Source: Akkermansiaceae bacterium
Lineage (GTDB): Bacteria > Verrucomicrobiota > Verrucomicrobiia > Verrucomicrobiales > Akkermansiaceae
Assembly (NCBI GenBank): GCA_903919975.1
Contig: CAIXKE010000014.1
Span: 1-64,000 of the forward strand
Length of the DNA: 64,000 bases
Reading direction: 5' to 3'
Notes under the pieces: generated by a model
What the model was told of the DNA's origin: nothing
Databases searched by the model: none
The model's input: the letters and a program-made list of their open reading frames with translations, nothing else
Position numbers and translations under genes: made by a program
Part shown: positions 35 to 60,829 of the stretch, one piece after another
How the letters are laid out: each line of letters starts with the position of its first letter
Position numbering within the stretch: position 1 is the stretch's first letter

Positions 35-58
35 GCACCACAGAAGTGTGGTGTCTCC
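35..58 (-). repeat. GGAG-headed hairpin (REP-like), single copy
   Basis: On the minus strand GGAG and one A are followed by a 7-bp perfect stem, CACCACA/TGTGGTG, with loop CTTC. GGAG begins directly after the stop codon of the MacB-type permease, so the element forms the 3' end of that operon's mRNA. The same GGAG-stem-(C)TTC-stem layout recurs near 20.0, 40.4 and 50.8 kb with different stem sequences. A partner in the opposite orientation may lie outside the window edge. Confidence 0.6.
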
Positions 59-20000: not shown

Positions 20001-20024
20001 GGAGCCACGACACTCTTGTCGTGG
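20001..20024 (+). repeat. GGAG-headed hairpin (REP-like), left member of an inverted pair
   Basis: GGAG at 20001 is followed by CCACGACA-CTCT-TGTCGTGG, an 8-bp perfect stem with a 4-nt loop. A second GGAG hairpin lies 60 nt away in opposite orientation at 20085-20108, giving a REPIN-like doublet in the gap next to the truncated GH2 gene. Confidence 0.65.
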
Positions 20025-20084
20025 TGCCAATGAGCCGTGAGAGAGAAGTGCTTTGCACGCGTTCCATTCTCATCTCATTGGTTT

Positions 20085-20108
20085 GGTGGACATGAGCGTC
20101 CACCCTCC
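20085..20108 (-). repeat. GGAG-headed hairpin (REP-like), right member of an inverted pair
   Basis: On the minus strand GGAG is followed by GGTGGAC-GCTCAT-GTCCACC, a 7-bp perfect stem. It directly follows the stop of the truncated GH2 frame, as the copy at 35-58 follows its gene. The stem sequence differs from its partner at 20001 though both keep full pairing. Confidence 0.6.
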
Positions 20109-38748: not shown

Positions 38749-39009
38749 ATGCCCATTTACGCATACGTTTCCCAATCTGCCGACGACCCCGCGCACTCGT
38801 GCCGCATCTGCGCCCGGGGGTTCGATCTGAGACGCCCCGTGGACCGCACTCCATTGCTGGTGTGTCCGTTGTGCAAAAACCCGGTCAAGAAAGTGATCAC
38901 AAGCTTCAATACGCCCACGATCACCAAGCCGCTTTCCGTCAGCGACGCCAAAAAGGCTGGCTTCACCGTCCTCGAACGGCGCGATCAAGGCGTTTACGAA
39001 AAACTCTGA
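38749..39009 (+). CDS. FmdB-family zinc-ribbon protein
   Basis: 86 aa from the ATG at 38749 (MPIYAYVSQ), the typical FmdB start. A longer frame from 38710 would overlap the region after rpsN. Two CxxC pairs form a zinc ribbon (CRIC and CPLC). The remainder is KKVITSFNTPTITKPLSVSD and a short tail. The role of FmdB-like proteins is unclear. The stop lies 3 nt before the CNNM start. Confidence 0.8.
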   Translation: MPIYAYVSQSADDPAHSCRICARGFDLRRPVDRTPLLVCPLCKNPVKKVITSFNTPTITKPLSVSDAKKAGFTVLERRDQGVYEKL

Positions 39010-39012
39010 TCG

Positions 39013-40398
39013 ATGACTGCGGATTTCATGATTCTGGCGACGGCGGGCGAAGTCATTTACCAATGGCCGACGGTTGATGAGGCCTTGTTTTATCTGGGTG
39101 GCATCCTGTTGTTCCTGATCCTCAACGCCTTGTTCGTGGCGGCCGAGTTCGCCTTTGTCAAAGTGCGTCCCAGCCAAATCGAAATGGAGGGCAAGGACAA
39201 ATCAAGCGGGGTCAATGCCGCCCGCAAGATCGTGGAGGATATCAATCCCTACCTGTCCGCCGCACAACTGGGCATCACCATCGCCTCGCTGGCGTTGGGC
39301 GCGCTGGGCGAGCCGTTTATCGAAAAACTTGTGGGTCCCGCCCTGCAGGGGATTTCCTGGTTTCCGACCGGGCTGGTTCCCACCATTTCGTGGATCCTGG
39401 CGATCGGTTCGTTCACCATGTTGCACGTGGTCGTGGGCGAACAACTGCCAAAAACCATCGCCATCCGGAAGTCTCTGGAAACCACGCTGCTCCTAGCGAA
39501 GCCCATGCGCGTGTTCTACAAGCTTTGTAGCATCCCGATCCGCATGCTCAACGGCGCCTCCAACTGGCTTGCCTGCGTGGTTTTCCGCATCGAGCCAACC
39601 AACGGCCACGAAGAGGCGCACTCCGCTGAGGAACTTGCGCTACTCGTCATCCAGAGCGGCCAGTCCCAGGAAGTCACGGAAACCGAACGTGAGATCCTCA
39701 TCAACGCCCTCGGCCTTAACGAACTCTGGGTGCGTGATGTGATGACCCCACGCAACAATGTGGTCGTGCTCGATGCCGACGAACCCTTCGAGAAAACCCT
39801 CGAAATCGCACTGCGCAGCATGCACACCCGCTTCCCGCTGGTGAAAGGCCACCTCGACAACGCGATCGGCCTGATTCACATCAAGGATCTTTTCAAACTT
39901 CTCAACGACCGCGATCCGGACCTAATGCGCATCAAGCGCGAACTCAAAATCGTGCCGGATACGATGCCGCTGGATACCTTGCTCAAGTTCTTCCTGCGTG
40001 AGCACGCGCACCTCGCCATGGCCGTCGATGAATTCGGCACGCCCGTCGGCGTCGTGTTCATGGACAACATCATGGAGGAACTCGTCGGCGATATTCAGGA
40101 TGAGTTCGACAACGAGCGCTCCGCCTTCACCCGCATCAATGACTCCGAATTCGTAGTCGAGGGCACCATGACTCTGAACGACCTCGGCGGTCACGTGCCG
40201 GAACTCATCATTGAAAGCGGCGAGGTCACCACCGTCGGCGGCTACCTCACCCAACAACTCGGACGTTTTCCGCTGGTCGGAGAAACCCATGAAATCCTCG
40301 GCTACGAAGCTCGCGTCACCAGCACCGACGGCCGCCGGGTCGGCCAGATTCATTTCCGGAAAATCGCCCCGGAATCCGCTGAGGAAGATGGTGATTAG
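39013..40398 (+). CDS. CNNM/CorC-type membrane protein with CBS pair
   Basis: 461 aa. An N-terminal DUF21/CNNM transmembrane domain (about 10-190, with ALFVAAEFAFVKVRPSQIE and NPYLSAAQLGITIASLALGA) is followed by two CBS domains (about 230-350) and a CorC_HlyC-type C-terminal domain (about 365-455). Such proteins are implicated in Mg2+/Co2+ transport and cation homeostasis. Three helices are visible. It is the last gene of the rpsN-FmdB cluster and is followed by GGAG hairpins. Confidence 0.92.
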   Translation: MTADFMILATAGEVIYQWPTVDEALFYLGGILLFLILNALFVAAEFAFVKVRPSQIEMEGKDKSSGVNAARKIVEDINPYLSAAQLGITIASLALGALGEPFIEKLVGPALQGISWFPTGLVPTISWILAIGSFTMLHVVVGEQLPKTIAIRKSLETTLLLAKPMRVFYKLCSIPIRMLNGASNWLACVVFRIEPTNGHEEAHSAEELALLVIQSGQSQEVTETEREILINALGLNELWVRDVMTPRNNVVVLDADEPFEKTLEIALRSMHTRFPLVKGHLDNAIGLIHIKDLFKLLNDRDPDLMRIKRELKIVPDTMPLDTLLKFFLREHAHLAMAVDEFGTPVGVVFMDNIMEELVGDIQDEFDNERSAFTRINDSEFVVEGTMTLNDLGGHVPELIIESGEVTTVGGYLTQQLGRFPLVGETHEILGYEARVTSTDGRRVGQIHFRKIAPESAEEDGD

Positions 40399-40402
40399 AT
40401 CC

Positions 40403-40442
40403 GGAGCGCCGACATCCTACGGAGCGCCGACATTCTGTCGGC
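40403..40442 (+). repeat. GGAG hairpin tandem (REP-like), left side of an inverted pair
   Basis: Two tandem starts: GGAGCGCCGACATCCT at 40403-40418 (half-element) and GGAGC followed by GCCGACA-TTC-TGTCGGC at 40421-40442, a 7-bp perfect stem. It lies 4 nt after the CNNM stop, reading in the same direction. A third, degenerate GGGGACATTCTGTC follows at about 40452. Confidence 0.7.
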
Positions 40443-40515
40443 TGTCGGACGGGGGACATTCTGTCACCTGTCTTCCGCGCAGAGACTCGCCGGACAGTAT
40501 GTCCGTCATCCAGCA

Positions 40516-40537
40516 GCGCGCAGAATGCACGCGCTCC
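40516..40537 (-). repeat. GGAG hairpin (REP-like), right side of an inverted pair
   Basis: On the minus strand GGAGC is followed by GCGTGCA-TTC-TGCGCGC (one G-T-type mismatch in a 7-bp stem) and then TGCTGG. It lies 56 nt beyond the recQ stop, reading in the recQ direction. With the copies at 40403-40442 it forms an inverted doublet about 75 nt apart. Between them GGACA-GTA-TGTCC (40492-40504) forms a small extra stem. Confidence 0.65.
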
Positions 40538-40592
40538 GGCAACGCGAATCCTTAAAGGCATTGGGCTTCAGCCTGCGAGTCCATCTTCAGGG

Positions 40593-42494
<1,902 letters not shown>

Positions 42495-42624
42495 GGTGGA
42501 GGAAATCATTAATGAGGATTGGGCGGATCGTGTCAGTTTTAAAAATCATCCGTCATGAGCTGTAGATAAACCATTTGCGTTTCAGGGTTGAGTCTTTTTC
42601 CGGTTTCCGCGAAAACAACCGCGG

Positions 42625-50786: not shown

Positions 50787-50799
50787 CGCCACAACTGCA

Positions 50800-50822
50800 G
50801 CGCGGAATTCATTCCGCGCTCC
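50800..50822 (-). repeat. GGAG hairpin (REP-like) between converging genes
   Basis: On the minus strand GGAG is followed by a nearly continuous palindrome; on the plus strand it reads GCGCGGAAT-TC-ATTCCGCGC (9-bp arms, 2-nt loop). It lies between the CrtO-like stop and the argS stop, reading out of argS, and could act as a bidirectional 3' hairpin. On the minus strand it is followed by TGCAG, as the copy at 40516 is by TGCTG. Confidence 0.65.
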
Positions 50823-59520: not shown

Positions 59521-59697
59521 CGGATAAAATAACCCGATTCCGCCAAAAGGGAAATGGCGGGACCTGCGCCGACCTGGCGGTCCGGCCGCGGTTGATGGCA
59601 GTCGCAAATTAAGTCGATTCTTCGATTTCTCCGCCAAACGGCTAAGATCTTGAGTTTTTAGCCTTATGGGAGTGGAATTCCGTAGCGGATCGTAACT

Positions 59698-60355: not shown

Positions 60356-60829
60356 ATGCCACGCCGCAAGCGCATCTTCACCAAACCGGATCGTCGCGAT
60401 CCCCGCTACGACAGCGCCCTCGTCGGTCACCTCATCAGCAAGGTGATGAACGATGGCAAGCGCTCACTCGCGCAACGCATCGTTTACGCCGCGATCGATC
60501 GCGCCAACGAAGGAATCGACACCGTCGATCCGCTCGAAGTCATCACCCGTGCGGTGGAAAACTCAAAACCACGCGTGGAAGTGAAATCCCGCCGCGTCGG
60601 TGGCGCCACTTATCAAGTACCGCTGGAAGTGCATCCCGACCGTTCCGAGTCGCTCTCGATGCGCTGGCTCGTCAACTACGCCCGCAACCGCAAGGGCACT
60701 CCGATGCACGTCGCTCTCGCCAACGAGATCAAAGACGCCGCCAACAACCAAGGTGCCGCCGTTCGCAAGCGCGACGATGTGCACAAGATGGCCCAAGCCA
60801 ACCGCGCCTTCGCCCACTTCCGCTTCTAA
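60356..60829 (+). CDS. rpsG: 30S ribosomal protein S7
   Basis: 157 aa. MPRRKRIFTKPDRRDPRYDS and the conserved VGHLISKVMNDGKRSLAQRI, RVGGATYQVPLEV and MAQANRAFAHFRF are complete. Binds 16S rRNA near the decoding centre and, in other bacteria, represses its operon. The ATG follows CCACCGCC with no Shine-Dalgarno, 35 nt after rpsL. Confidence 0.98.
   Translation: MPRRKRIFTKPDRRDPRYDSALVGHLISKVMNDGKRSLAQRIVYAAIDRANEGIDTVDPLEVITRAVENSKPRVEVKSRRVGGATYQVPLEVHPDRSESLSMRWLVNYARNRKGTPMHVALANEIKDAANNQGAAVRKRDDVHKMAQANRAFAHFRF

Follow-up and report, generated by a model that had tools for sequence, protein, structure and literature searches.

A REPIN family with GGAG-headed, two-hairpin arms and its probable RAYT in an Akkermansiaceae genome

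The intergenic element between the converging CNNM and recQ genes is, at a probability of roughly 0.9, a REPIN, that is a non-autonomous 117-bp inverted pair of REP sequences spread by a RAYT encoded on contig C3 of the same genome. A REPIN with its cognate RAYT is a known kind of system; the GGAG head and the two hairpins in each arm are the variant. The element belongs to a dispersed family with a fixed pairing of its arms, small RAYT genes are flanked by it in three genomes, and the HUH and Tyr positions are conserved in four aligned RAYTs. The window referred to below is the whole stretch of 64,000 nucleotides that was analysed. G000 denotes the genome from which it comes.

The element in the window and its copies in the genome

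The CNNM gene (39013-40398, plus strand) and recQ (40593-42509, minus strand) are separated by a gap of 194 bp, of which the element occupies 40421-40537. It consists of two inverted arms, each with a GGAG head and two stem-loops, hairpin A followed by hairpin B (Table 1). The arms of the window copy are identical in 34 of 52 positions when aligned without gaps (shuffle mean 14.4, maximum 25), and a CT immediately 3' of hairpin A is kept in both. Hairpin B is less regular than hairpin A and has an apex of the type GACAT-CTGTC. The predicted fold of the 117 bp beats 200 of 200 shuffles in both cases, with z -3.8 for DNA and z -5.8 for RNA.

Table 1. GGAG hairpins and neighbouring repeats in the window
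Feature	Position	Strand	Remark
GGAG hairpin, register of the single-hairpin family	35-58	-	Read directly; exact pattern not matched
Inverted pair, second (single-hairpin) GGAG family	20001-20108		20001 arm an exact match
Truncated 18-nt arm 1 head	40403-40420	+	GGAG present, stem without 3' half
Arm 1, GGAG head and hairpin A	40421-40442	+	7-bp stem, TTC loop
Arm 1, hairpin B	40451-40468 (approx.)	+	Apex GACATTCTGTC, lower stem imperfect; limits set by eye
Arm 2, hairpin B	40491-40505 (approx.)	-	6-bp stem, 3-nt loop
Arm 2, GGAG head and hairpin A	40516-40537	-	66 genome copies
Dispersed repeat AATCCTTAAAGGCATTGG, just past arm 2	40547-40564	+	40 genome copies, control 0
GGAG-headed palindrome with GGAATGAATTCC core, third repeat	50798-50822	-	12 core matches in 251,874 nt

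A sequence-only reading of this region had described two GGAG hairpins on the plus strand and one on the minus strand. Those at 40421-40442 (plus) and 40516-40537 (minus) are real, while the one at 40403 is a head fragment without a hairpin; similar fragments directly precede a number of other element copies. The second hairpin of each arm had been overlooked. The apical CATTCTG is kept in both hairpins, as had been noticed, and the two stems, GCCGACA/TGTCGGC and GCGTGCA/TGCGCGC, are different sequences that each pair, the latter with one G-T. The chromosome-wide family of inverted REP pairs that had been proposed from these features is borne out by the genome. The 22-mer of arm 1 has 66 copies in 3.8 Mb at up to three mismatches, 33 of them exact, with none for the reversed-pattern control; inside the window it has one match at the same threshold, against 0.01 expected. 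The controls for arm 2 gave 0 and 1 matches on the two strands. An inverted arm 2 is found downstream of 59 of the 66 arm 1 copies, and the span of the pair is exactly 117 bp in 45 and 114-118 bp in 57 of the 66. The inverted doublet at a set spacing is therefore the commonest arrangement. Seven arm 1 copies have no partner, three of which are cut off by a contig start. The assembly consists of 112 contigs, and several of them start or stop inside the repeat. Tandem neighbours were found for 15 copies, 12 at a distance of 121-123 bp and three at 136-138 bp.

Complete elements extracted from the fetched sequence number 50, and identity to their consensus is 97% for the window copy, 95% for the middle-ranked copy and 62% for the lowest. 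The stem of hairpin A pairs in 46 (arm 1) and 47 (arm 2) of the 50. GGAG stands on both arms in 47, in agreement with the preference for this head that had been expected, a count to be read with the extraction itself having sought GGAG-headed arms with up to three mismatches. According to a crude gene caller of our own, 17 elements lie between convergent, 13 between tandem and four between divergent genes, five are at contig ends and 11 are "inside an ORF". The copies are thus mostly extragenic (39 of 50 outside called ORFs), and the two top-scoring cases among the 11, the two that were examined, are 5' over-extensions. Gaps longer than 60 nt in the element loci are tandem in 45, convergent in 23 and divergent in 17 cases. 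An orientation towards gene 3' ends, another expectation of the sequence-only reading, is only suggested with these crude gene calls. The arrangement of CNNM beside recQ was not found in 29 loci from relatives (tblastn, recQ flanks up to 1.5 kb).

The hairpins near 35, 20001, 20085 and 50800, which had been counted as further copies, belong to other repeats, and the GGAG hairpins of the window do not make up a single family. The single-hairpin family has 27 exact matches, including the 20001 arm (control 0); the partner on the minus strand at 20085-20108 is assigned to it by register only and does not match the exact pattern. The AATCCTTAAAGGCATTGG tag was considered as a possible insertion target; of the 40 tags, 21 lie 8-11 bp past arm 2, and on the side of arm 1 the distance varies. 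Besides the window, this repeat was read at L160, L168, L172, L173 and L187. In several loci the REPIN has AATCCTTAAAGGCATTGG, with a core of GGAATTCATTCC or GGCTTCAGCC, on either side of it and looks nested within this repeat. At L162 (G000:C37) and L177 (G000:C92:36296) the tag follows a common structured sequence of about 150 nt, in which no REPIN arm was found.

The RAYT of the same genome and the origin of the family

A RAYT gene, for which a search had been proposed, is present at G000:C3:59885-60469 with tandem copies of the element on either side, at 59551 and 59673 before it and at 60505 and 60628 after it. The product of 200 amino acids is 66% identical to the RAYT on G026:C136 that served as query. 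It matches the NCBIfam model REP_Tyr_transpos with an E value of 3e-19 and 69.3 bits, under the curated cut-off of 80, and gives only a weak match to Pfam Y1_Tnp (13.4 bits against a cut-off of 23). A profile of this protein and three relatives matches the E. coli TnpArep structure 4er8 with an E value of 1.5e-7, and the HUH and Tyr columns are invariant in the four aligned sequences. With an HUH motif, a downstream Tyr and similarity to TnpAREP, the gene very probably encodes a RAYT, the NCBIfam score being below the cut-off. Pfam PF01797 gave 15 Y1 matches in the genome, and the cognate RAYT was not among them; it was recovered with the protein query. The closest RAYTs, at G026:C136 and G041:C27, have this REP on their flanks with one or two mismatches (one at G026:C136), and small RAYTs are in this way bracketed by the window-type REP in three genomes.

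A second RAYT of the same genome, at G000:C22, is 55% identical and carries the single-hairpin family on its flanks. The genome thus has at least two REPIN-RAYT pairs, the C3 RAYT with the 117-bp element and the C22 RAYT with the single-hairpin family. A further RAYT lies by murG (L032, G000:C73:19459) and is flanked by GTAG-headed hairpins, GTAGTCCAGGACTTCAGTCC, so that the canonical head is found in the same genome. A larger Y1 family is represented by L033-L037, L040-L042 and L045, with full-length frames of 362-392 amino acids; several of these genes lie at the ends of contigs, which fits a multi-copy insertion sequence.

Binding, cleavage and transposition of the element by the RAYT are proposed from the sequences. 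Each arm would fold when the DNA is single-stranded, the RAYT would bind the GGAG guide together with hairpin A, its tyrosine would cleave at a nearby dinucleotide, and the pair of arms would be carried to another site, mostly in intergenic DNA. A candidate for the cleaved dinucleotide is the CT that immediately follows hairpin A on its 3' side. Cleavage at CT has been modelled through A3 and G4 of the head (PMC8266576), and since GGAG retains both, CT cleavage is predicted here as well.

The location between converging genes, the strong RNA fold (z -5.8) and the 17 convergent cases out of 50 would also fit a bidirectional terminator or RNA-stability hairpin of the two genes, the family then being a regulatory RNA structure. 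The only terminator-like site in 40300-40700 is, however, at 40330 inside CNNM, and the tandem arrays, the 117-bp pairing and the transposase flanked by the element are left unexplained. An intrinsic terminator was rejected as a label for the element, which lacks a GC-rich hairpin followed by a T run, and a known RNA family is ruled out by Rfam, which has no match in 39000-42000. This account of the family is very improbable; a secondary role of the element in transcript ends is possible. Slightly less credible still is a MITE-like repeat mobilised by another transposase, such as the Y1 proteins of 362-392 amino acids, with the C3 RAYT flanked by chance. About nine similar large Y1 genes, whole or as gene ends, are present in the genome, and G055 and G054 have copies without a close RAYT, but no such arm is seen in the flanks of the large Y1 genes that were read, several of them cut by contig ends, and chance flanking sits poorly with the small RAYTs bracketed by the repeat in three genomes.

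As a REPIN the element resembles those described in Pseudomonas fluorescens SBW25 (Bertels and Rainey 2011, PMC3116915), where inverted REP doublets are the unit, near-identical REPINs form tandem clusters, clusters lie by the RAYT gene, and at least two REPIN classes each have their own RAYT. It differs from them in the GGAG head, the two hairpins per arm and the verrucomicrobial host. The GTAG and CGTC super-families, which include Opitutus terrae of the Verrucomicrobia, likewise have a head tetranucleotide with a stem of 6-9 bp, dimers, a preference for intergenic positions and some REPs inside genes; their heads are GTAG, variants such as GTGG, or CGTC (PMC3733652), with CnGA described for another class (PMC3733652, PMC6006769). 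Membership of the GTAG super-family was rejected, both arms starting with GGAG rather than GTAG or GTGG in 47 of 50 elements, and the element is on account of this head a variant and not a GTAG REP. The TnpAREP subclasses share the HUH-Tyr core and the hairpins with a guide tetranucleotide flanking the gene, and differ in canonical heads of the type GT[AG]G (PMC6006769, PMC8266576). A word beginning with GGAG is absent from the main texts searched for it, which include those of PMC3733652, PMC6006769 and PMC8266576.

GGAG hairpins and RAYTs across the genus

The named relatives of the RAYT are mostly from metagenome assemblies of Akkermansiaceae and Verrucomicrobiaceae. The family of the window is patchy and was matched at up to two mismatches in 13 of 99 genomes, the own genome included, with 65 matches in G000, 46 in G026, 11 in G055, 10 in G054 and one to three in the others. 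RAYTs were found in 50 of 71 genomes at an E value of 1e-40. At this threshold G055 has none, and the best RAYT of G054 is at 56%.

The flanks were analysed for 32 RAYT loci, 30 from the genus search (including C3) and two more from the own genome. A search of 260 nt on each side of the RAYT found GGAG hairpins in 27 loci and in none of the remaining five; they are upstream in 24 and downstream in 26 of the 32. The totals are 45 hairpins upstream against 0.4 expected from Markov resamples of the same flanks, and 61 downstream against 0.75, a few nested heads being counted twice. The GGAG head is constant while the stems change across the genus. Forty-five distinct single-hairpin arms align without gaps as GGAG, 8 nt, a loop of 4 nt and 8 nt, after removal of two of 47 four-base-loop hairpins (odd sequence, judged chance) and one three-base-loop hairpin. 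Both sides of the stem have changed at seven of the eight pairs, with 92 cells against 31.3 in shuffled data, a value reached in 0 of 500 shuffles; further pair types number 15 and show no excess over the shuffles (15.5). The arms used for covariation were preselected for six inner pairs, and the flank-enrichment count is therefore the cleaner test.

In the protein tree the four RAYTs with two-hairpin arms on their flanks are split from the 27 others with a branch support of 97/99, which suggests that arm architecture tracks RAYT lineage. The pairs of RAYT and REP across the genus, with a fixed GGAG and changing stems, amount to a natural experiment on how HUH enzymes read hairpins.

RAYTs inside housekeeping genes

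Many of the RAYT matches fell within very long open frames, and these embedded genes are a more surprising lead than the REPIN family itself. On balance they may be homing elements, carried as in-frame REP-RAYT-REP units at fixed permissive sites of enzymes (IspG, MetH, LeuS and CarB, also HsdR and AlaS), exchanged between species with co-conversion of short stretches of flanking host sequence, and shielded from loss, since only a precise removal would spare the enzyme.

RAYTs in frame and without stops were found in 41 of the 71 genomes searched. They are in IspG at site A (27 genomes) and site B (2), in MetH at site 1 (3) and site 2 (20), in LeuS (13), CarB (5) and an HsdR-like gene (3), all per-site counts being free of doubled loci; there is one case in AlaS besides these. 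With embedding defined as a frame of at least 110 amino acids before the RAYT and 60 after it and no stop, 82 of 90 matches and 77 of 85 loci qualify. Loci were picked for long frames and some are doubled (such as L046 and L265), so the number 82 should not be read as a rate or as the number of separate insertions. PNHxH is retained in 80 of the 82. NCBIfam models placed host and RAYT in one frame in all eight proteins scanned, with the RAYT below the cut-off in seven, and the cases include two genomes assembled as single contigs, G004 and G105.

In the own genome IspG and MetH each carry an embedded RAYT. One lies in frame inside an IspG of 861 amino acids (L046, G000:C80:73000-77500); both IspG matches fall in this frame, and thus no other IspG was found in the genome. 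The other is in MetH (L047, G000:C92:15500-19000), bracketed by inverted hairpins of the GTGGCGCGGGCG type, and at site 2 this MetH has no insert. A search with the REP pattern of the metH insert gave 0 matches in 251,874 nt of own-genome sequence, which speaks against a large REP population driven by this RAYT.

In-frame REPs inside genes are already known (PMC3733652, PMC6006769). RAYT genes inside housekeeping genes were not found in the literature searched, which covers few of the subscription journals. The ShiLan domain (PMC11855218) is similar in being a stop-free insert in a host gene with an intein-like evolutionary pattern, and differs in that it is a homing HNH endonuclease in a phage methylase gene, where the present inserts are Y1 transposases that come with REPs and sit in housekeeping genes of cells. 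A question raised in 2011 is whether RAYTs and REPs are saved from dying out by "an addiction system" or by a function in the physiology of the cell (PMC3116915). The RAYTs inside essential genes bear on this question, since such a position would itself be an addiction; homing, if true, would answer what keeps the RAYT-REP associations from extinction.

One case of apparent exchange is in metH. L307 (G015:C38:1-7000) and L308 (G017:C4:12500-21000) share an identical block of 733 bp that spans REP, RAYT and REP with roughly 20 and 40 bp of host sequence on the two sides. Outside the block the genes are 82% identical upstream and 88% downstream, and the host parts have dS values of 1.05 and 0.61, against 0 in the RAYT. 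Such a block is as would be expected of a homing element.

The homing reading is limited by the scored pairs, of which only eight of 617 have a RAYT clearly more alike than both flanks, four of 190 at metH site 2 and four of 351 at IspG site A, all of the latter involving G058; there were none among 66 scored pairs in LeuS and none among 10 in CarB. The opposite is commoner. Identity of the RAYT is more than 12 points below that of the upstream host part in 97 of 190 pairs at metH site 2, 303 of 351 at IspG site A, 44 of 66 in LeuS and nine of 10 in CarB, which faster evolution of the RAYT could explain. In the pair G045-G053 the host parts are 98 and 95% identical and the RAYT 53%, and pairs of this type look like replacements of one RAYT by another.
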